Assembly (NCBI GenBank): GCA_944327085.1
Contig: CALVGG010000001.1
Span: forward strand, 124,001-188,000
Direction of reading: 5' to 3'
Origin: an uncultured Elusimicrobiales bacterium
Lineage (GTDB): Bacteria > Elusimicrobiota > Elusimicrobia > Elusimicrobiales > Elusimicrobiaceae
Length of the DNA: 64,000 nt
A program made the translations under genes and the position numbers. This document shows, piece after piece, positions 52,404 to 63,249 of the stretch (positions are counted from its first letter, which is position 1; the number at the start of each line of letters is the position of its first letter). The notes beneath the pieces were generated by a model. The model worked only from the letters and a program-made list of their open reading frames with translations, was not told the origin of the DNA and did not search any database.

Positions 52404-54149
52404 TTAATCGGCTCTTTCCTCTCCCACGCGGAATTTTTTGGACTCATAATGCGTATGCAGCAGCTTATGGGCCACCGGGCCGCCTATTTTATCCAAAATG
52501 CGGCCGTACAAAGCGGTAACGCCACTGTTATCCTGGGATTTGTAGGCCAGTTCGGTATCTTCCTGATACAAGCCCTCCGCACGCACTTTGCGCGGGGCCC
52601 AGCCGTCAAACTGGGGCTGGCCGGCACCGGCCACACAACCGCCCTGGCAGGACATGACTTCAATAAAGTCATAATGATCCTTGCCGGATTTAATATCCTC
52701 CAGCAGTTTACGCGCATTTTTAAGCCCGCTTACCACCGCGGTGCGGATTTTAACGTCCCCAATGGTAACGGTTTTTTCTTTAAATACTTTGGGTTCGCGC
52801 AGGCTGGTGAACTTTACGCTGCGGGCGTTGCCGGGGTCCAGCTCGGCCACGGCGTAACGCAAGGCGGCTTCCATCACGCCGCCCGAGGCGCCAAAAATAA
52901 CGCCCGCGCCCGTTTTGGTGCCAAAGGGCATATCAAACCATTCGTTTTCCAGGTTTACAAAGTCTATGCCGGCCTCTTTAATCATACGGGCTAAGCCTAC
53001 GGTGGTAACCACATAATCCGTATCCGGGTTATCGTTTACGTAAAATTCTTCGCGTTTTGCTTCCGACTTTTTGGCCGAGCACGGCATCACCGCCACTACC
53101 ACCAAATCTTCGCGTTTGCCGCCGCGTTCCTCAAAGTCCGCCTTCAGCACGGGGCCCATCATTTGCATGGGAGAACGGGCGGTGGATAAGTTGGGAATAA
53201 ATTCCGGCGCGAACTTTTCCACATAGTTCACCCACGCCGGGCAGCAGCTGGTAAACTGCGGCAAATTGGTGCCTTTTTTAAAGCGTTCCAAAAATTCGGT
53301 GGCTTCTTCCACAATGGTCAAATCCGCCGCGAAGGCCGTGTCGTACACATAATCAAAACCCAGCATACGCAGGGCGGCGGCTATTTTGCCGTCCACATTC
53401 TGCCCTTGGGGCAGGCCAAAAATTTCGCCCAGGCCCACACGCACCGCAGGTGCAATATGCACGGCCACTTTTTTGGCGGGGTTGTTAATGGCTTTAAACA
53501 CTTCTTCAATTTCGGAAGAGTTTGGCATCAACGCCCCCGTGGGGCATACGCGCGCGCACTGGCCGCAGGACACGCATTCGTGGCTTTGGCCCAGCTCTTT
53601 ATTAAAAGCGGTGGCAATTTTGGAGCGGAAACCGCGGAAAGCAAAATCAATGGCGCCAATGCCTTGCACCTCGTTACAAATGCGCACGCAGTTGCCGCAC
53701 AGGATGCACTTGCTGTGGTCGCGCACCAAAGCGGGGGAGGTGGCATCTTTATGGCTGTCTAACTTTTTGGATTTAAAGCGGATTTCGGTTACGTCCAAAT
53801 CTTTAGCCAGCTTCTGCAATTTGCAGTTATTGGATTTGCTGCAAAGGGTGCAGTCGTGATTGCCGGAGGAGAGCAAAAGTTCCAAATTAATACGGCGCAG
53901 TTTGCGTATTTCGTCGCTATTTACGCGCACTTTCATACCGTCTTTAGGCGGTACCGTGCAGGAAGCCACAATGCCCATGCCTTCCACCTCCACCAAACAC
54001 AAACGGCACGCGCCGTAGGCGGCCAGTTCCGGGTGGTAACAGAAGGTAACAATGTTAAAATGCGCCTTGCGGATTAATTCCAGCAGGTTTTTTTCACCTT
54101 CAATAGGTACTCTTTTGCCTTCAATGGTTACAAATTGTTCTTTTTCCAT
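52404..54149 (-). CDS. hydA: [FeFe] hydrogenase catalytic subunit HydA
   Basis: A 581-residue hydrogenase. Domains in order: N-terminal [2Fe-2S] domain (CYHPELAAYGACRLC...C, 1-80), a His-Cys3 [4Fe-4S] site (HDCTLCSKSNNC), two bacterial ferredoxin clusters (CILCGNCVRIC, CVSCGQCARVCP), and the H-cluster domain with L1 TSCCPAW, L2 MPCSAKK and L3 MSCQGGCVAGAG. All H-cluster cysteines are present. With HydB and HydC it should form the trimeric enzyme that uses NADH plus reduced ferredoxin to make H2 (electron confurcation). The final three genes are one operon. Maturases HydE/F/G are not in the window. Confidence 0.97.
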   Translation of the reverse strand: MEKEQFVTIEGKRVPIEGEKNLLELIRKAHFNIVTFCYHPELAAYGACRLCLVEVEGMGIVASCTVPPKDGMKVRVNSDEIRKLRRINLELLLSSGNHDCTLCSKSNNCKLQKLAKDLDVTEIRFKSKKLDSHKDATSPALVRDHSKCILCGNCVRICNEVQGIGAIDFAFRGFRSKIATAFNKELGQSHECVSCGQCARVCPTGALMPNSSEIEEVFKAINNPAKKVAVHIAPAVRVGLGEIFGLPQGQNVDGKIAAALRMLGFDYVYDTAFAADLTIVEEATEFLERFKKGTNLPQFTSCCPAWVNYVEKFAPEFIPNLSTARSPMQMMGPVLKADFEERGGKREDLVVVAVMPCSAKKSEAKREEFYVNDNPDTDYVVTTVGLARMIKEAGIDFVNLENEWFDMPFGTKTGAGVIFGASGGVMEAALRYAVAELDPGNARSVKFTSLREPKVFKEKTVTIGDVKIRTAVVSGLKNARKLLEDIKSGKDHYDFIEVMSCQGGCVAGAGQPQFDGWAPRKVRAEGLYQEDTELAYKSQDNSGVTALYGRILDKIGGPVAHKLLHTHYESKKFRVGEERAD

Positions 54150-54164
54150 AAGTATGCTCCGTGG

Positions 54165-56048
54165 TTATGCGCCTACAATGACCGCGCCAAATTTACAGGT
54201 GGCTTTGCAGCCGCCGCATTTAATGCATTTTTTGGCATCAATGTGATGGGGTTTGCCCACCTCACCCGATATGGCCTGCACCGGGCAAGCCCGTTTGCAC
54301 ATACCGCAGCCTTTGCACTTATCGGCCAGGATTTCAAACCGGGCCAAGGCTTTGCACACGCCGGCCGGGCAGCGTTTTTCAACCACGTGGGCCAGGTATT
54401 CGTCCTTAAAGTGTTTTAAGGTGGAAAGCACCGGGTTGGGCGCCGTTTTGCCCAAAGCACATAAAGAAGACTTTTGCACCGCTTTGGCCAGGTCTTCCAA
54501 ATTTTCCAGCGTTTTTAAGGCAGCGCGGCCTTCCACAATGTCATTTAACATGGTAAGCATTTGTTCGGTCCCTTCGCGGCAGGGAACGCATTTACCGCAG
54601 GATTCGCGCTGGGTAAACTCCAGGAAAAAGCGCGCCACGTTGACCATGCAGGTTTTATCGTTCATCACTACCAACCCGCCAGATCCCACCATGGCGCCCA
54701 CGGATTTGAGGGAGTCAAAATCCAAAGGCAGGTCCAAATGTTCCCGCGTTAAACACCCGCCGGAAGGGCCGCCAATTTGCGCCGCTTTAAAGGCTTCTTT
54801 ATTTACGGTGCCGTCATCATTGGTGGTGCCGCCGGCCACGTCGTCAATCACTTGGCGCAGCGTGGTGCCCATGGGCACTTCCACCAGGCCCGTATTGGCA
54901 ATGTGCCCCGTTACGGCAAAAGTTTTGGTGCCCGGGCTGCCCAACGTGCCTATTTTGCGGAATTTTTCCGCCCCCATTTCCAACACTTTGGGTACGGTGG
55001 CCAAAGTTTCCACATTGTTAATAACGGTCGGCTTGCCGAATAAACCGCACTGGCTGGGGAAAGGTGGCTTAATTTTGGGCATACCGCGCTTGCCTTCCAC
55101 AGAGGCAATTAATGCGGTTTCTTCCCCGCACACAAAAGCGCCGGCGCCTTCCATTACGTGTATTTTAAAATCTTTGCCTGAGCCAAAAATATTTTTGCCC
55201 AAAAGGCCCAGTTTTTCGGCCTGTTCAATGGCTTTGCGGATACGGGCAATGGCCAACGGATACTCCATACGCACGTATACATATCCTTCATCCGCCCCGA
55301 TGGCGCGCGCGGCAATCATCATGCCTTCCAGCACGGCGTTGGGGTTGCCTTCCATAACGCTGCGGTCCATAAAAGCGCCCGGGTCGCCCTCGTCGGCATT
55401 GCAGATAACGTATTTTTTGGGGCCGGGTTCAATGCGGGTTAAATCCCACTTTTTGCCGGTGGGGAAACCGCCGCCGCCGCGCCCGCGCAGGCCGGAAGCG
55501 ATCATCTCTTTGCAAACTTCCTCGTCGGTCATCTGCGTATAGGCGCGTTTGGCCTGGGCGTACCCGCCGTGGGCGATGTATTCGTTAATGTCTTCGGGGT
55601 TGATGCGGCCGCAGTCGTGCAATAAAATGCGTTCCTGCTTGGCATAGAAAGGGATTTCCGCCACTGTTTTGGCTTTTTGGTTATTGGCCGGATTGTGGTA
55701 TAAAAGGCGGTCAATCACTTCGCCTTTTAAAAGGGTTTTTTCCACAATTTCGGGGACGTCTTCGGCTTTTACTTTGGTGTAAAAAATGTCCCCCACGCTA
55801 ACTAACGGCCCCTGCGCACAGAAGCCGCGGCAGCCGCTCATGCTTAAATAATTTTCGTGGCAGTCTTTGGTAATTTGCAAACAAAAACCGATGTGGCGCT
55901 TTTCCATTTCTTTTTGGAAGGCCTCATATACTTTTAAGGAGCCGCCCGCAATACACCCGGTACCCCCGCAAATAACCACACGGCCGGTTATTTTTTTATA
56001 CGCGTCGTTATAATCTTTGGCAATTTGTTCAATGGTTTTATTAGGCAT
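54165..56048 (-). CDS. hydB: Hydrogenase NADH-binding subunit HydB (NuoF-like)
   Basis: A 627-residue flavin/iron-sulfur subunit. It has an N-terminal thioredoxin-like [2Fe-2S] domain (about 20-115), the NuoF FMN/NAD domain with GRGGGGFPTGKKW and CNADEGDPGAFMDR, the SLBB domain, the [4Fe-4S] site ESCGKCVPCREG, and a C-terminal 2[4Fe-4S] ferredoxin domain (CKGCGMCKRACP, CIKCGGCKATC). This is the HydB/HndC architecture that passes electrons between NADH and ferredoxin. It overlaps hydC by 8 nt and lies 15 nt before hydA. GGAGG precedes the ATG. Confidence 0.96.
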   Translation of the reverse strand: MPNKTIEQIAKDYNDAYKKITGRVVICGGTGCIAGGSLKVYEAFQKEMEKRHIGFCLQITKDCHENYLSMSGCRGFCAQGPLVSVGDIFYTKVKAEDVPEIVEKTLLKGEVIDRLLYHNPANNQKAKTVAEIPFYAKQERILLHDCGRINPEDINEYIAHGGYAQAKRAYTQMTDEEVCKEMIASGLRGRGGGGFPTGKKWDLTRIEPGPKKYVICNADEGDPGAFMDRSVMEGNPNAVLEGMMIAARAIGADEGYVYVRMEYPLAIARIRKAIEQAEKLGLLGKNIFGSGKDFKIHVMEGAGAFVCGEETALIASVEGKRGMPKIKPPFPSQCGLFGKPTVINNVETLATVPKVLEMGAEKFRKIGTLGSPGTKTFAVTGHIANTGLVEVPMGTTLRQVIDDVAGGTTNDDGTVNKEAFKAAQIGGPSGGCLTREHLDLPLDFDSLKSVGAMVGSGGLVVMNDKTCMVNVARFFLEFTQRESCGKCVPCREGTEQMLTMLNDIVEGRAALKTLENLEDLAKAVQKSSLCALGKTAPNPVLSTLKHFKDEYLAHVVEKRCPAGVCKALARFEILADKCKGCGMCKRACPVQAISGEVGKPHHIDAKKCIKCGGCKATCKFGAVIVGA

Positions 56049-56523
56049 GTTGCGCCTCCTGTTTCATAACGGCGTCCAACAGTTCCACCGCTTTAGCCGG
56101 GGTAACCTGGCCGTGTACAACTTCGTCAATTACCATCACCGGGGCCAAACCGCAGGCACCCAGGCAGGAAACGCACTCCAGCGTAAACAGCATGTCTTCG
56201 GTAGTGTCTTGCCCTTCTTTTAATTTTAATTTGTCTTTTACCGTGTTAATAAGGAAAGACGAGCCCTTTACATGGCAGGCCGTGCCGTTGCAAACTTTAA
56301 TGATATGCTTGCCTTTGGGCGTAATGGCAAAATGCGCAAAAAAAGTGGCCACGCCAAAAACCCGGGCGGGCGATATTTCAAGTTCATCAGCTATATAGCG
56401 CATTACGTCTTCGGGCAGGTAGCGGTAAGCGTCTTGTACTTTTTGCAAAATAGGAATTAATTTGGACGGGTCATACTCATACTGTTTGAGTATGTTTGCG
56501 ACGGGTGTGAATTTGTCTGTCAT
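56041..56523 (-). CDS. hydC: Hydrogenase [2Fe-2S] subunit HydC (NuoE-like)
   Basis: A 160-residue thioredoxin-like ferredoxin of the NuoE/HndA family. An N-terminal helical bundle (LIPILQKVQDAYRYLPEDVM) is followed by the cluster domain with CNGTAC (first Cys pair) and CVSCLGAC (second). It is the first gene of hydCBA. ATG at 56523 was chosen because AAGGAGAC lies 6 nt away; a longer in-frame reading to 56628 begins with a sequence unlike the family and overlaps the promoter leader. Confidence 0.95.
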   Translation of the reverse strand: MTDKFTPVANILKQYEYDPSKLIPILQKVQDAYRYLPEDVMRYIADELEISPARVFGVATFFAHFAITPKGKHIIKVCNGTACHVKGSSFLINTVKDKLKLKEGQDTTEDMLFTLECVSCLGACGLAPVMVIDEVVHGQVTPAKAVELLDAVMKQEAQHA

Positions 56524-56646
56524 ACTTAGTCTCCTTAAAACAACGGCGGTACTGCGTTTGCTTCGGGTACGAAAAGAAAAGACTGGACAAATCCGCACGC
56601 GGGCAGCGCGCGGAATACAACAAGCCAAATAGCGGGCTTAAATTCC

Positions 56647-56690
56647 ATTATAACCAGTTAACGCCGGGCTGTCAACGACAGCCCGACGTA
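56647..56690 (-). promoter_or_regulatory. Consensus sigma-70 promoter of hydCBA inside a hairpin
   Basis: On the minus strand TTGACA (56675-56670), a 17-nt spacer and TATAAT (56652-56647) match consensus fully, giving a leader of about 117 nt before hydC. The -35 lies on the loop side of a hairpin (GGGCTGTC-GTT-GACAGCCC, 56662-56690) that also follows the 56714 gene, so one element may terminate the upstream gene and start the next. Confidence 0.7.
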
Positions 56691-56713: not shown

Positions 56714-57838
56714 TTATCTGGCCCAGCCGTTAGCGGCTTTTAACTGGTAATAATTATTCAGGGCGTTAAGCAGGGTTAAATAGCCGCTTGCATCCAGCGC
56801 AAAGCCGCCCCCGTGGGTGGAAAGCATACCGTCAAACCCCATATCAAAAAGGGTTTGGGCGTGGGCGTCTTCTTCACTAAAAGCAGATAATGCCAAAACA
56901 GGCGTAGTGTTATTATGACGGCGAAACTGGGCAATTAAAGCATAGCCGCCGCCGTTGGCCATAACCAAATCGGTAATAACCAAATCAAATTGCACGCCTC
57001 TTTCCAGCGCTCTTTCAAAATCATGCACGCTGCGGTAAGTAAAAAGCTGGGTATCTTTGGGGAATAATCCGCGGCGGTACCAACTGTATACGGCATATTC
57101 CACCGGGGATAAATCATTCAAAAACGCAATACGCATACCGGTGGGAATGCCTGCCGCTATTTTTTTGGCGCGGTACGCATTGCGTATCTCCCCCAGCCAG
57201 CTACTTCTTTTTAAGTATGGGGGGCGGCCGTCCGGGCCGTAAAGGAAAAATTCCTTTGCCACAAATTTGCGGTCCGTACGGCGCAAGTGGGAAGGCAAGG
57301 TCAGCTCATTTGCGGCATACGGGTTTAAAATTTTACGCGCTTTTAACAAATATGTGCGGGCCGCCTGAAGGGGTTTATCGTCAAACACCAGGGCCAAGCA
57401 AGAGAGTTTTTCTTCTACAGCCGTTATGCGCATATATAAATGAGACAAAGCCGCGGGAGTGAGTTTATCGTTTTGTGTTTGTATGTAAAAAAGTTGGGGG
57501 GCCAAGTCTTTTTTCAATGCGGCAAAATCTTTCATTGCCTGGTAGTAACGCCGTTTTTCCAAGCGGCGTTGGCGGTCATTTAACGGGTAAATAATTGGGA
57601 CCAGCTGATCAGGAGAGGTGGGTGTATATACCGCCGATGAAGCAGCGTATTGCAAACGGCTTTCCACCGCTTTTTTAAAAAGCTGTTGTTGAAAGCGAAT
57701 GTCACGCACTTCTTTTTGGCCTAAATTTTTAGCCAACCGTTTGGCAGCGGGCATCATATTGTTTTGCGCATACAAGGGAGCTTGCCCCACTGCATATATA
57801 CCTAACAGCACATAAAGTGCCATCAACTGCAGTTTCAT
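56714..57838 (-). CDS. Predicted exported receiver-domain protein, paralog 1
   Basis: A 374-residue protein with a Sec signal peptide (MKLQLMALYVLLGIYAVGQA, cut near LYAQ-N). Residues 60-230 form a helical domain with RRYYQAMKDFAALKKDLAPQ and a LFY motif, shared with its three paralogs. Residues 234-355 form a CheY-like receiver: acidic D242 (FLNDLS), phosphoacceptor-type D290 (VITDLVM), and the Ser switch in LALSAF. The conserved Lys near the end is missing (GFDGML). If exported it cannot be phosphorylated by cytoplasmic kinases, so it may be a structural or ligand-binding use of the fold. It is the last gene of a three-gene operon with paralogs 2 and 3. Confidence 0.75.
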   Translation of the reverse strand: MKLQLMALYVLLGIYAVGQAPLYAQNNMMPAAKRLAKNLGQKEVRDIRFQQQLFKKAVESRLQYAASSAVYTPTSPDQLVPIIYPLNDRQRRLEKRRYYQAMKDFAALKKDLAPQLFYIQTQNDKLTPAALSHLYMRITAVEEKLSCLALVFDDKPLQAARTYLLKARKILNPYAANELTLPSHLRRTDRKFVAKEFFLYGPDGRPPYLKRSSWLGEIRNAYRAKKIAAGIPTGMRIAFLNDLSPVEYAVYSWYRRGLFPKDTQLFTYRSVHDFERALERGVQFDLVITDLVMANGGGYALIAQFRRHNNTTPVLALSAFSEEDAHAQTLFDMGFDGMLSTHGGGFALDASGYLTLLNALNNYYQLKAANGWAR

Positions 57839-57858
57839 ATATTTGTACCTTCTTCATT

Positions 57859-58974
57859 TTAATATTCCCATTGATGCAAGTTACGATAGAAAAAATAGTT
57901 TTGTATTTTTTGTGCCAACAGCAACATATCGCCGCCGCAATCGCCAAAATACGGGCTTATGCTGATCATACCGTCAAACCCGGCCGAATACAGCCACGCG
58001 GCGGTATGTTTATTTGGCTGGTATTGGGTTAAGGCAATTAACGGGGTGGGGATGTTGCGCTGGCGAAGTTCCGCCGCGAGTAGCGGCCCCCCGCCGCCGG
58101 GCACCAATACATCCGTTAAAATTAAATCAAATTGTTCCCCCAGTTTAATAGCCCGCTGGGCAGCCTGGGCGCTGCCGTAAAAAACCCATTGGCTTTTGCT
58201 TCCAAAACCGCCGCGTTTATACCAATGCTCCAAAATAGCCAGTAAGGACGGGTCATCATTTACTACCGCCACTTTTTTAACTGGCAAGCTTTCCATAATC
58301 CGCCGGCAACGGCTGTAAGCAAACCAGGCGCCGCGCCCTTCTTTTACCTGAGAAGAAAAAACAGACCGCTTGGGCGCCTCCAACATAAACTCACTTATTT
58401 GATACACGCGTTTGCCTCGCGGCCATTCCTTGGAGCCAAACATATTTTGAAACATCGGTTCCACACGGCCGGCCGCTTCGTTTAAATAATCCAATGCGCG
58501 GGCAAGGGCAGGGTCCGCACGAAAGGGACCCGCTTTTAACGCGCGGATGCGGGAACTTAAATCCCCCATTTGTTTAAAAATTTCCTGTTTTTCCTGCTGG
58601 GCAAAAGGGCGGCCTTCCCCCGGCAGGGTTTGGTAAAAAAGGCGCACGTCCAGCTCCCGTTTAAAAGCGGTAAAATCTTCCATTGTTTTATAATAGCGGG
58701 CGAGCAAAGCTTTTTTTTGTAAATTTTCCAGCTCCGGGAAAAACACCCGCAGCTGCTCCGGCCGGGTGGGTTTTATGGAACGGAACATAGGGCTTTCACG
58801 CAAGGCGTGCATGGCCCGGGCCCCGGGTGAAAGCACGGCCTTTTTGCCGCTTTCTTTAGTAACCTTTTTTATGGCCTGGGCCGCACCCGCAGGCAGTTTG
58901 CCCTGCCCATATACTGCCCCGGGCAACACCAAACCGACTGACAAGACAACCCCCCACCAACCGTATAATTTCAT
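57859..58974 (-). CDS. Predicted exported receiver-domain protein, paralog 2
   Basis: A 371-residue protein with a signal peptide (MKLYGWWGVVLSVGLVLPGA, cut near VYGQ-G). The helical domain has ARYYKTMEDFTAFKRELDVR and LFY, then ARALDYLNEAAGRVEPMF. The receiver domain (about 234-360) has the acidic pair D240-D241 (VVNDDPSL), D288 in LILTDVLVPGGGG, and Thr in IALTQY; the Lys is absent (GFDGMIS). The C terminus (NYFFYRNLHQWEY) matches paralogs 3 and 4. The gene lies 3 nt after paralog 3 and 20 nt before paralog 1. Paralogy is seen directly; function is unknown. Confidence 0.75.
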   Translation of the reverse strand: MKLYGWWGVVLSVGLVLPGAVYGQGKLPAGAAQAIKKVTKESGKKAVLSPGARAMHALRESPMFRSIKPTRPEQLRVFFPELENLQKKALLARYYKTMEDFTAFKRELDVRLFYQTLPGEGRPFAQQEKQEIFKQMGDLSSRIRALKAGPFRADPALARALDYLNEAAGRVEPMFQNMFGSKEWPRGKRVYQISEFMLEAPKRSVFSSQVKEGRGAWFAYSRCRRIMESLPVKKVAVVNDDPSLLAILEHWYKRGGFGSKSQWVFYGSAQAAQRAIKLGEQFDLILTDVLVPGGGGPLLAAELRQRNIPTPLIALTQYQPNKHTAAWLYSAGFDGMISISPYFGDCGGDMLLLAQKIQNYFFYRNLHQWEY

Positions 58975-58977
58975 TTG

Positions 58978-60195
58978 TTAACGCATCCACTTATGTAAAT
59001 TACGATAATAAAAATAATTCTGTAAAGCTTCCGGCGCTCTGCGGTAGCCATAATCGTCGGACATTACATACCCGTCAAAACCAATTTCAAACAGGTCTTC
59101 CCCTTTTACGGCATCTTCTTTGTAGCCGCTTAAGCCGATAACCGGGGTGTTTATACTGTTTTCACGCAGTTTGTTTACCAGTAACATACCGCTGCCGTTG
59201 GGCATGGAAATATCGCTAAAAATAATATCATATTTACTGCCGTGTTTCAGGCTGTCTCCCAGCTTGTAAATACTGTCAAACGTAGTAACCTGCGCACCGG
59301 CCCCAAAACGCCCCCAACGGCCAAAGTTGGCCATGGCAGATAAGATATCAGGGTCGTCGTTTACCACGGCAATCTTAAGCCCGGCGGGCAAAGGGGGCAG
59401 TTGCACATCTTTGCCGGGGGAGGCCAACATAAATTCCTGCTTGTCATACACGCGGTCTTTACGTAAATAAGCGGGCATTTTTTCCAGCACACCGGCCAAA
59501 CCGGGCTGGAGCTCAATCATACGCTGGGTTAAATATTTAGTAGCCAAATAAAGGGGCATATCTTCCGGGAAGTAATATAAAGATAAAAATTTTAACCGAA
59601 TGCGCAATTTCCCTACGTCCTGACTCATTTGGGCGCGTTCATGCGGGGGCATGGAGATGGCGCTTACGCCGTCCGCCTTGAAATAAAACATCTTAATATC
59701 TACAAATTTTTTAAGTGTTGCAAACTCCTTCATGCGCTGGTAATATGTTTTGCGTGCCGCTTCAGGAGACATCATATCAAACCGCTTACCGCCGCCGTTG
59801 CGGGCAATGCGTTTGGCGGTCTCTTCGGAAGTCAACATGGCGGCCATCAGTTGGCGCTCCGGCGTGGGCTTAATGGCAGGGGGCATAATTTCATATGTTT
59901 TCTTTAAAATGGTTTCATCTAAATTTTCCGCTGCGCCTTCCATCCGGCGGCCGGAAATCACCTCATCCGCTTCGGTACGGTCCCGCTGCATCATTTGGTT
60001 TAATTGTTCGGGAGGATAAGGCAGTTTGGCACGGTTTACCACCCGGGCTTTAAATTGCCCGGCCTTGGAAGGTAAAGTTTCTTTTGTAATAACACGCACC
60101 AGGCTGCCGCCTTTTCCCTGGGCATATCCCGTAAAAGAGCAGGCAACTATACAACACGTAAGCAAAAAACCTTTTAATAAAGCCGATGTCTTCAT
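58978..60195 (-). CDS. Predicted exported receiver-domain protein, paralog 3
   Basis: A 405-residue protein with a signal peptide (MKTSALLKGFLLTCCIVACS, cut near GYAQ-G). It has a longer N-terminal region than its paralogs, then TYYQRMKEFATLKKFVDIKM with FY, and LATKYLTQRMIELQPGL. The receiver part has D280-D281 (VVNDDPDI), D328 in IIFSDISMPNGSG and Ser in IGLSGY; this copy is closest to a canonical response regulator, yet the Lys is still missing (GFDGYVM). ATG at 60195 was chosen because GGGAGG precedes it. It heads the three-gene operon. Confidence 0.75.
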   Translation of the reverse strand: MKTSALLKGFLLTCCIVACSFTGYAQGKGGSLVRVITKETLPSKAGQFKARVVNRAKLPYPPEQLNQMMQRDRTEADEVISGRRMEGAAENLDETILKKTYEIMPPAIKPTPERQLMAAMLTSEETAKRIARNGGGKRFDMMSPEAARKTYYQRMKEFATLKKFVDIKMFYFKADGVSAISMPPHERAQMSQDVGKLRIRLKFLSLYYFPEDMPLYLATKYLTQRMIELQPGLAGVLEKMPAYLRKDRVYDKQEFMLASPGKDVQLPPLPAGLKIAVVNDDPDILSAMANFGRWGRFGAGAQVTTFDSIYKLGDSLKHGSKYDIIFSDISMPNGSGMLLVNKLRENSINTPVIGLSGYKEDAVKGEDLFEIGFDGYVMSDDYGYRRAPEALQNYFYYRNLHKWMR

Positions 60196-60305
60196 AAATC
60201 CTCCCATATAGCTTATATGTATAATCTAAACAAAATCCCCCCCACACACAAGGGCCTTTGGGCCCATTTTAAAGTAGGTCCAATGTCCCGCCGGAAAGCC
60301 CAAAT

Positions 60306-60333
60306 AAAAACCGCCCTGTTACGGGCGGTTTTT
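60306..60333 (-). terminator. Terminator after paralog 4
   Basis: Perfect 11-bp stem AAAAACCGCCC/GGGCGGTTTTT, separating the paralog 4 unit from paralogs 1-3. Confidence 0.85.
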
Positions 60334-60357
60334 GCAAAAAACAAACTATAAGCAGCC

Positions 60358-61500
60358 TTACCACTTATAATAATCTTTATAAAAGAAGAATCTTTTCAAA
60401 CCTTCAGCCAAGTGCTTCGGGCCGGAAGCGGTTACATCCGCCCAGGAGATAAACCCGTCAAACCCCTGGTTAAACATTTGCTGGGCATTAATTTGGCCCA
60501 CCGTGTACGAACTGCATACAATAACCGGTAAAGTATTGCCGGCCGCGCGCAAACGGCGCACACTTTCCAGCACGCTGCTGTTGGCCACGGTCCAATCCGT
60601 AATCAGCAATTGGTAACCCGGGTTTTGGGCAATGCCTTTTACGGCTGCTTCCGCGGTGGAAAAGAAAGAAAAGTCCCACCCTTTAAAAAGGCCTTGTTGC
60701 TGCCACAGGGTGTATTGCTGCAAAATGGTGGGGTCGTCGTTCACTACGGCTACTTTTAATTTTTCCGGCAAGGCGGCGGTGCGCGGCGGCCAGGCCATGC
60801 GCGACATTTGGTCAAACCACATTTGGTCAAGTACAAACTCTTCCCGCTGGAAACGCCGCCCAATACGCTTTTGGGGTTCTTCGTATAAACCTTTAAACAT
60901 AGGGTTAATCTCACCCACTACAAAATAAAGGTATTTCAAAGCGTCTTGAAGGGGTTTATCTTCCGGATAAATTTTTTGTAATTTACGCAGTCTAAAAAGT
61001 ACACTGTTTACGGAAGTAATCAGGATGCGTCTTTCTTCAAAAGAAAATTTGACTGAGCCGTAAGTCTCCGCCACGCGGGTGTTATAATTTTGGCGTACTT
61101 TTAAAAATTGGGCCAGGGCCTCTTCATATTGGCGTGAAAACATAAATTCCTGCCCGGTAAACGGATGCGGCAAAGCCGGTAAAGCCTGCGGTTGAGTAGG
61201 AACAATCTGCCGGCGCAAAAGCTGTGTTCTTTGGGAAGCAGGGGTATTTAAAAGTTCTTTGGCGTATTTTTGTTGTCTTTCTTTGGCGGCTTGTATTCTG
61301 GCCTGAAGCTGAGCCTGCTGCACAGCCCGTTCCCCGCTGGAATATAAATCGTCCAAACGGTCCAAAATACTGGCGGCTTTTTGTTCCCCCGTGTTTTGAA
61401 TGGCTTTTTTACCCAACACTTTAGCCCCTTATACCAAGGGCTGCGCCTGCAGGCAAACACAGCTTATACAAAGGGTGCATAACAGCACAATCTTTTTCAT
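60358..61500 (-). pseudogene. Receiver-domain paralog 4, interrupted by an in-frame TAA after the signal peptide
   Basis: An ATG at 61500 starts a typical signal peptide (MKKIVLLCTLCISCVCLQAQ) that ends at an in-frame TAA (61431-61429). The same frame then continues without further stops as a 353-residue body, starting at a GTG (61419) preceded by AAGGGG. The body has the helical domain (FSRQYEEALAQFLKVRQNYN, LKYLYFVVGEINPMF) and receiver with D228-D229 (VVNDDPTI), D275 (LLITDWTV), Ser (VCSSY), no Lys, and the C-terminal FFFYKDYYKW. It could be a young nonsense mutant, a readthrough gene, or a copy re-initiated at GTG that now stays in the cytoplasm. Confidence 0.7.
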
Positions 61501-61634: not shown

Positions 61635-62684
61635 TTATAGTATTACGGACAGCAACACAAAATAACTGCCCATCAGCCACAGCCCTGTAGGCACGGCCAC
61701 TTTGGCCCATTCCCGGCTTTTTATACCCAGTTTTTCAGCCGCCACAATGTTGGGCAGGTTCCCCTGCACCAGCATACTGCCGCAGGCCGTAAAACCAATA
61801 ACCATATACAGCAGGTCTTTTATCCCAATATCCGGCACAATTTCTATGGCGGCCAGGGTGGTATTGTCTATAATTACGGAAACGGAATTGGCCAAAAATA
61901 AAATCTTACCGCCCAGATGGGCAATGGTGCTCTGAGCCAGCGGCCTGAGCCCCGTGCTGATTAAATTTAACGCCGCCACAAACATATACACATGCAACGT
62001 GCGTTTAAGCATAGAAACATACGTTTCTTTATCTTCCCGTATATGCATTTGCATGGTGGTGCCGGCTTCCCGCACGCAGTAACCCGCCGCCACGGCCAAA
62101 GCCGCCAAAGCAGGCACTATCCACCAAAAAAAATGCCGTGTAAGAAAGAAAAAATCCGCATGGTGCGGCGGGCCGGATAAAGTATTATTAATAATTAAAC
62201 TTAAAGGTTCCGCCAGCGGGGTAAGCACCGCCCCTAACCCAATGGCATAACAGGCAAAAACGGTTACTTTTACCGTGGTGGTACGTTCCAAAGCAACTAC
62301 TTTTAACACCTCTGCCAATACCAACGCCGCCACCGTTACGCTGACCAGGCTGGAACACAACCCCAACACAAATACCAAAAACGCAAAGCTGAACTGCGGC
62401 TCCACCCGTTTAAAAAAAGCAAACAATACGCGGAAAATATAGCGGGAATAATTGCCGAATATAACACTGACCACCAATACAATAAACGCCACGTTTACCG
62501 GGGCGTTGAGCGTTTCATACACAAAATTTACGCTCCAGCCGCCGCTAATGGTAACCGCCAGCGCCCCCACAGCCAAAAGGAAAATTTCCAAATGGCTTTC
62601 CACCCATTTGGACGTTAACGGCCACACCAAAAGGTTTATTACCACAATAGCCAGCAAAATGTTTGTAAAGAGAGAAATTTCCAT
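61635..62684 (-). CDS. DUF1646 family cation/anion transporter-like protein
   Basis: A 349-residue membrane protein with ten or more helices. The sequence (WPLTSKWVESHLEIFLLAVG, GAVLTPLAEPLSLI, FLANSVSVIIDNTTLAAIEI, CGSMLVQGNLPNIVAA) matches the DUF1646 (PF07854) family, distantly related to ion-transporter superfamily members such as NhaD/ArsB. The repeated polar helix breaks (TPLAEP and VQGNLPN) resemble substrate-binding hairpins. The transported ion is unknown. TAAAAT lies 6 nt before the ATG and there is no Shine-Dalgarno. Confidence 0.8.
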   Translation of the reverse strand: MEISLFTNILLAIVVINLLVWPLTSKWVESHLEIFLLAVGALAVTISGGWSVNFVYETLNAPVNVAFIVLVVSVIFGNYSRYIFRVLFAFFKRVEPQFSFAFLVFVLGLCSSLVSVTVAALVLAEVLKVVALERTTTVKVTVFACYAIGLGAVLTPLAEPLSLIINNTLSGPPHHADFFFLTRHFFWWIVPALAALAVAAGYCVREAGTTMQMHIREDKETYVSMLKRTLHVYMFVAALNLISTGLRPLAQSTIAHLGGKILFLANSVSVIIDNTTLAAIEIVPDIGIKDLLYMVIGFTACGSMLVQGNLPNIVAAEKLGIKSREWAKVAVPTGLWLMGSYFVLLSVIL

Positions 62685-62778: not shown

Positions 62779-63249
62779 ATGAAAAAAACCTGCATTACCT
62801 TAATTGCTTTGTGTGCCGCGGCCAGCGCCTTTGCGGCAGACACCTGCAACTGCGAAAAAGGAGACCTGGCCTGCGCCAGCGCCTGCACCCGCGCCAAATT
62901 AACCGCGGCCAAACAATCGGCCCAAGATAAAGCCGACGCTTTAAAACAGGCCGCTGAAGACAAAAAAGCCGAATTGCAAGCCAATAAAGAAAACAAAACC
63001 AACGCGGCCGACGAAGCCAAAACCGCTTTGGAAGATAAAAAAGACGCAGTGCAATCTAAACTAGATGAAATTAAACAAGCCGCTAAAGACAAAAAAGCTG
63101 CCGTAAAAAAAGCCGCCGCGGATAAAAAAGCCGAGGCTAAAGCCAAAGCAAAACAAGACAAGGCGGACAAAAAAGCCAAATTAAATGCCATTAAAGACCA
63201 AGCAAAACAAGAGGCCAATGCTTGGAAAGCCTTGGGCAAAAACAAATAA
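62779..63249 (+). CDS. Exported Lys/Ala-rich helical protein
   Basis: A 156-residue protein with a signal peptide (MKKTCITLIALCAAASAFAA), a short Cys-rich head with four cysteines (DTCNCEKGDLACASAC), and about 110 residues made almost only of Ala, Lys, Asp, Glu and Gln in near-heptad runs (e.g. LDEIKQAAKDKKAAVKKAA). It should form a long highly basic helix or coiled coil outside the cytoplasm. The composition resembles histone H1-like or lipoprotein-like helical proteins, but no family is recognised. It stands alone between two terminators. Confidence 0.7.
   Translation: MKKTCITLIALCAAASAFAADTCNCEKGDLACASACTRAKLTAAKQSAQDKADALKQAAEDKKAELQANKENKTNAADEAKTALEDKKDAVQSKLDEIKQAAKDKKAAVKKAAADKKAEAKAKAKQDKADKKAKLNAIKDQAKQEANAWKALGKNK

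Follow-up and report, generated by a model that had tools for sequence, protein, structure and literature searches.

Organization of the locus

The window, a stretch of 64,000 nucleotides from an uncultured Elusimicrobiales bacterium, harbors four consecutive receiver-type genes (g1 to g4) on its minus strand (Table 1). The encoded proteins share a common plan, in which a short predicted signal peptide with an A↓Q or G↓Q end is followed by a Lys-rich stretch, a helical domain and a C-terminal receiver domain. The products of g1, g3 and g4 are 26-31% identical to that of g2, and the genes g2, g3 and g4 are spaced by 3 and 20 bases. The original prediction, which had described three intact genes and one interrupted gene with this shared plan, was confirmed with corrections. 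The YYxxMxxF-type motif that it had placed in the helical domain is present as well, in g1 in the version RQYEEALAQF.

Table 1. Features of the receiver-type array and of its borders (positions in the window).
Feature	Position	Strand	Remarks
DUF1646 membrane protein, putative transporter	61635-62684	minus	borders the array, and likewise the empty site, upstream
g1, predicted exported receiver-type gene	60358-61500	minus	broken by TAA after the signal peptide
g1 signal peptide, MKKIVLLCTLCISCVCLQA↓Q	61444-61500	minus	read from the sequence
g1 in-frame stop TAA, codon 24	61429-61431	minus	sense codon in G005 and G052
g1 receiver domain, reaching the C-terminus	60361-60756	minus	VVNDDP, ITDW, SSY, GFDGFISW; Pfam E 2.1e-6
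Hairpin and T-run in the g1/g2 gap, probable terminator	60308-60340	minus	z -1.8; from the sequence
g2, intact predicted exported receiver-type gene, 409 aa	58978-60207	minus	Pfam; AlphaFold model
g2 signal peptide ending GYA↓Q	60121-60207	minus	from the sequence; helix 8-27 in the model
g2 helical domain, helices 148-178, 188-212, 217-233	59509-59766	minus	predicted structure; no PDB match
g2 receiver domain	58981-59376	minus	N283, D284, D332, S360; Ser383 replaces Lys
g3, intact predicted exported receiver-type gene, 371 aa	57859-58974	minus	signal peptide 58906-58974; receiver 57862-58275
g4, intact predicted exported receiver-type gene, 374 aa	56714-57838	minus	signal peptide 57767-57838; receiver 56717-57133
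TTGACA-17-TATAAT promoter-like site before the hydrogenase genes	56647-56675	minus	12/12 match
hydC, hydB and hydA-type [FeFe]-hydrogenase genes	52404-56628	minus	downstream border of the array

The TAA codon of g1 is followed by a GTG in the same frame at position 61419. Orthologues of g1 in two other genomes, G005 and G052, harbor a sense codon where g1 has the stop, which is thus local to this genome. Based on this comparison and on a dN/dS of 0.10 between g1 and its G005 orthologue, the stop is judged to be a recent nonsense mutation or a sequence or assembly error. Conserved recoding was discarded, as the internal stops of the orthologues sit elsewhere and a sense codon occupies this position. 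The g1 signal peptide of G052 itself begins out of frame. Breaks near the signal peptide were seen in family members of three species (60358-61500 in the window, about 9960-10010 in L070 and about 4600-4960 in L078) and are due to nonsense codons or, in an A-run, to a start that is out of frame. Such single broken members may represent decay, on/off variation or assembly errors.

Receiver fold and helical domain

The assignment of the C-terminal domain to CheY-type receivers with a (βα)5 fold was borne out by Pfam, profile search, AlphaFold and Foldseek. E values for the Pfam family Response_reg (PF00072) were 1.5e-12 for g2, 6.6e-9 for g4, 4e-8 for g3 and 2.1e-6 for g1. Three of the four genes pass the curated cut-off of 30.2 bits (36.4, 33.8 and 48.1 bits), whereas g1 reached 28.3 bits in hmmscan and 30.2 bits in the genome search. 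A search of the PDB with the family profile retrieved a designed receiver (8e-13) and natural receivers (3e-9 and 1e-8). In the AlphaFold2 model of g2, residues 256-409 have block pLDDT values mostly above 80 and largely above 90, and the strands 278-282, 306-310, 328-332, 356-360 and 379-382 alternate with helices in the order b1a1 to b5a5. Foldseek returned receiver-containing structures throughout the matches listed, with TM scores of up to 0.85 (target-normalised). The helical domain, predicted alone, has a mean pLDDT of 87.6. Profile and fold searches recovered no recognisable relative and no solved-structure match for it; it is family-specific.

Predicted export

A short signal peptide, typically with an A↓Q end, is present in 80 of the 81 intact and complete relatives, as called by a simple rule combined with inspection, so that the Sec signal peptides of the original prediction stand as predicted features. 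The rule by itself was passed by 66 of the 74 members from loci of the genus, but it is lax, being passed by 105 of 384 neighbouring open reading frames too. Among the eight members that fail it, four have a signal peptide on inspection or after correction of the start, three are broken near the start and one is cut by a contig end. Eleven further members include ten with a signal peptide, the exception being L118, which has none in its open frame. The seven canonical receivers encoded in this genome all lack a signal peptide at the N-terminus. Cysteine content points in the same direction: the family contains 0.28%, most of the cytoplasmic neighbours about 1-4% and a neighbouring outer-membrane factor 0%; this argument is only supportive, because small cytoplasmic receivers of this genome are likewise Cys-poor (0-1.6%). 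Export of the family from the cytoplasm is thus well predicted.

The mature N-termini are rich in Lys and Arg, as would be the case if the N-terminal segment were an uncleaved, reversed anchor with Lys after the hydrophobic stretch and the receiver remained cytoplasmic. This is hardly to be expected: at a median of 12 residues the hydrophobic core is too short for a membrane anchor, it is often followed by Pro and then AxA↓Q, as is typical of cleaved signal peptides, Cys is scarce, and giant family members with secreted-type protease domains share the leader type.

Residues of the receiver pocket

The pocket was compared in 85 sequences. All of them have the second acid of the DD pair (DD2; D284 in g2) and the phospho-acceptor Asp (D332), although collection of the members with receiver-like profiles could favour sequences that keep these residues. 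The switch Ser/Thr is found in 81/85 and the switch Lys in a single sequence, while the position of the first acid harbors Asn in 76 sequences and an acidic residue in none. The phospho-Asp contexts ITD, LTD and FSD and the Ser/Thr switch were recognised correctly by the original prediction, and the loss of the conserved Lys (GFDG without Lys) is true family-wide. Of the acidic pair read in VVNDDP, the second acid stood and the first did not: when aligned to the Pfam profile, the two positions hold Asn and Asp (N283-D284 in g2). Nor does VVNDDP occur in all four proteins, as g4 instead reads FLNDL.

With PF00072 receivers such as CheY, PhoP and PmrA the family shares the fold, the order of its elements, the DD2 Asp, the phospho-Asp and the Ser/Thr, and in most members Pro at D+4. 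It differs from them in its predicted export, the Asn in place of the first acid, the lost Lys, the helical domain in front and the absence of the usual DNA-binding or enzyme output. The family therefore does not carry the set of canonical phospho-receivers (D, D, D, S/T, K), and D332, kept in 85/85, separates it from aspartate-less receivers. According to Bourret et al. 2025 (PMC12632262), a pseudo-receiver is a recognised receiver that misses any of the five residues; the proteins described here, with two of the five catalytic residues lost, are pseudo-receivers by this definition, as judged from their sequences, yet their putative cation site is unusually well kept. The pseudo-receivers of that review have a non-acidic DD2 in about 80% of cases, retain D, T and K in about 65% each and have lost the first acid in about 20% (PMC12632262). 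In the family, by contrast, DD2 is Asp and the phospho-Asp is invariant in all members, whereas the first acid is lost in all. Direct ligands of a cation kept and the phosphoryl-binding Lys gone would be the trace expected of a retained cation site without phospho-signalling. The earlier proposal that the pocket binds metal ions fits the strict conservation of the two putative ion-holding Asp residues.

The kept phospho-Asp, DD2 Asp and Ser/Thr, together with Pro at D+4 (53/85) and Gly at D+8 (58/85), would also be in line with working periplasmic phospho-receivers that are phosphorylated by an unknown donor without the Lys. Neither ATP nor a histidine kinase domain is known to occur outside the membrane. 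Moreover, Lys and first acid are lost family-wide, and we regard this reading as very improbable, even though a receiver changed at DD, T or K may still be phosphorylated (PMC12632262).

Distribution and evolution of the family

Searching the Elusimicrobiota for the same architecture, as had been proposed, recovered the family in two of 100 genera sampled, namely in 43 genomes of the genus of the window and in two of a sister genus. Relatives among named records are metagenome-assembled genomes, mostly of uncultured Elusimicrobiales. Three architectures occur: short proteins (about 360-430 aa) that frequently form arrays of 2-5, proteins of middle size (440-530 aa), and giants. In a tree of the module (helical domain and receiver), g1, g2, g3, g4 and a fifth paralogue each form one fully supported orthologue group, and the giants of the genus form another. 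Since each of the four genes belongs to its own supported group in other species, the array does not result from a recent expansion; the family is expanded across Elusimicrobiaceae gut genomes, but its orthologue groups are deep. dN/dS ranges from 0.09 to 0.20 in the unsaturated comparisons, two saturated g4 comparisons and the pair of g1 with its G052 orthologue being left out. As far as sequence comparison can tell, these orthologue groups are old and divergent, and purifying selection acts on them.

The fifth paralogue is located elsewhere in the genome (G000:C2:153309-154460) and follows a HlyD/ABC exporter cluster in five species. In L048 (5280-7144) it is positioned between this cluster and a type IV pilin-like gene with a Wzy_C ligase gene, a gene order that is kept in the five species.

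The array is located between the DUF1646 and hydrogenase genes in about 17 loci. Twelve array-free genomes of the genus have these border genes next to each other, with 73-249 bases between the aligned ends. This indicates that the array is an accessory filling of a fixed slot, whose occupancy varies by species from absence to 1-5 copies. The hydrogenase genes are probably a separate transcription unit, as suggested by the promoter-like site before hydC, which matches in 12 of 12 positions. A functional tie to the hydrogenase or to DUF1646, as gene order might imply, is weakened by the adjacency of the borders without the array and by this promoter-like site. Beyond DUF1646, a small Lys/Ala-rich protein with a signal peptide and cysteines at its mature start is encoded on the plus strand (window 62779-63249), and similar proteins (cluster c9) occur near many arrays. 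A mobile element was rejected, as searches of plasmids, phages and viral contigs found no relatives of the family, and PADLOC gave no match to defence systems.

The variable filling of the slot, empty in 12 related genomes, the deeply divergent paralogues and the decay of single copies (g1 here and one copy in G002) would suit accessory, diversifying surface proteins for host contact or competition, their receiver serving purely as a structural scaffold, with no chemistry of its own. Cross-species orthologues at dN/dS of 0.1-0.2 and the invariant pocket argue instead for a specific biochemical role, and we consider such surface proteins unlikely.

Giant members and predicted exported protease-type proteins

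Giants of both genera are predicted to be exported, are about 1,820-2,360 aa long and carry the receiver module C-terminally. Seven genomes of the window's genus encode giants (1,819-2,168 aa, one cut at a contig end), in most of which one or two copies of a His-Gly ... SVYxNxCxSG motif in the style of caspase-like peptidases were found; in two, one repeat has lost the His. Profile searches for a caspase-like fold gave neither a Pfam nor a PDB match. The sister-genus giants (2,351 and 2,357 aa) harbor signal peptides, two Trypsin_2 (PF13365) domains with His-Asp-Ser motifs, and the module on the same chain. In the genus of the window, by contrast, trypsin-fold proteins are separate from the module and have Cys replacing the catalytic Ser; those in the arrays of its own genome share the leader type.

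Several further features were observed. The sister-genus giants (L109:5110-12165 and L110:6005-13078) contain a stretch with kinase-like motifs (HTDIGAN ... MLDYEYF) and, judged only by eye, repeated RG / SFSPYASV motifs reminiscent of ADP-ribosyltransferases. Two adjacent frames (L123:1524-3995 and L123:4066-5478) have HG ... DSC[YF]PG motifs and lack the receiver module; the first has a signal peptide and a weak likeness to Peptidase_C13 (0.088). The genome of the window encodes at least 12 exported Trypsin_2-type proteins in four tandem arrays (L124-L127; G000:C4:68500-76000, C2:69000-73500, C11:5000-9800 and C1:105500-112500). With an invariant Cys in place of the catalytic Ser (H124, nearly invariant D160, C230; motif GxCG) they resemble chymotrypsin-fold cysteine proteases, which to our knowledge are rare in bacteria.

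Such exported trypsin-fold arrays occur in 44 of 66 genomes of the genus, in 35/36 genomes with short receivers versus 9/30 others (Fisher 3e-9), and in none of the seven genomes with giants. The association is suggestive only, because in a hydB tree it follows clades, with two to three independent pairs. A link between short receivers and trypsin-fold arrays drawn from co-occurrence was set aside, as shared descent can explain it.

The recurrence of one module at or near the C-terminus behind diverse N-terminal parts (a short linker, proteins of 440-530 aa, and giants with protease domains), ending in NYFYYRxxxxWxR in most members of the genus, would be expected of a sorting or anchoring domain that places cargo in the envelope, with the receiver fold merely a convenient scaffold. 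Apart from the module, most members contain nothing that is obviously cargo, and conservation of two pocket Asp residues in 85/85 is more than a mere address tag would require, which makes a sorting domain rather unlikely.

Proposed role of the predicted exported receivers

As the module is fused to protease-type domains in the exported giants, a docking or regulatory function is its simplest reading. Our preferred, tentatively held explanation is that the proteins are Sec-exported pseudo-receivers in which a cation-ordered combination of helical domain and receiver serves as such a module for exported proteases. The pre-protein would consist of a cleaved signal peptide, a Lys-rich linker, the family-specific helical domain and the receiver-fold domain. 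Since there is no ATP outside the cytoplasm, the receiver would presumably not serve in a phosphorelay. Its two invariant Asp residues are the probable ligands of a divalent cation (Mg2+ or Ca2+), and the bound cation could bring order into the beta-alpha loops. Helical domain and receiver could then act on exported proteases, in the giants in cis, on the same chain as the protease-type domains, and in the short proteins in trans. With somewhat less confidence, the receiver can be envisaged as a regulated extracytoplasmic switch that is controlled by a divalent cation or another ligand, not by a kinase, and that governs exported proteases in cis or in trans; this is possible, if doubtful.

Of the original interpretation, the predicted signal peptides, the receiver fold, the loss of Lys and the expanded family held up, and the first acid of the pair did not. 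Loss of this acid, the giants with the module beside protease domains and the variable occupancy of the site had been no part of it.

Few protein domains are as common as the receiver domain, which is regarded as a cytoplasmic target of ATP-using kinases. Among the open-access papers searched, none was found to speak of exported or periplasmic receivers except one on the sensor kinase CitA, whose subject, according to its abstract, is the kinase. The pseudo-receiver review does not mention periplasm, export or secretion (PMC12632262). The present family cautions that a PF00072 match alone does not justify annotation as a two-component regulator. Conserved, selected exported receivers with the cation site kept and the Lys lost would, if true, represent a second life of the fold, and the family would lend itself as a clean example from nature in which to learn how pseudo-receivers work.
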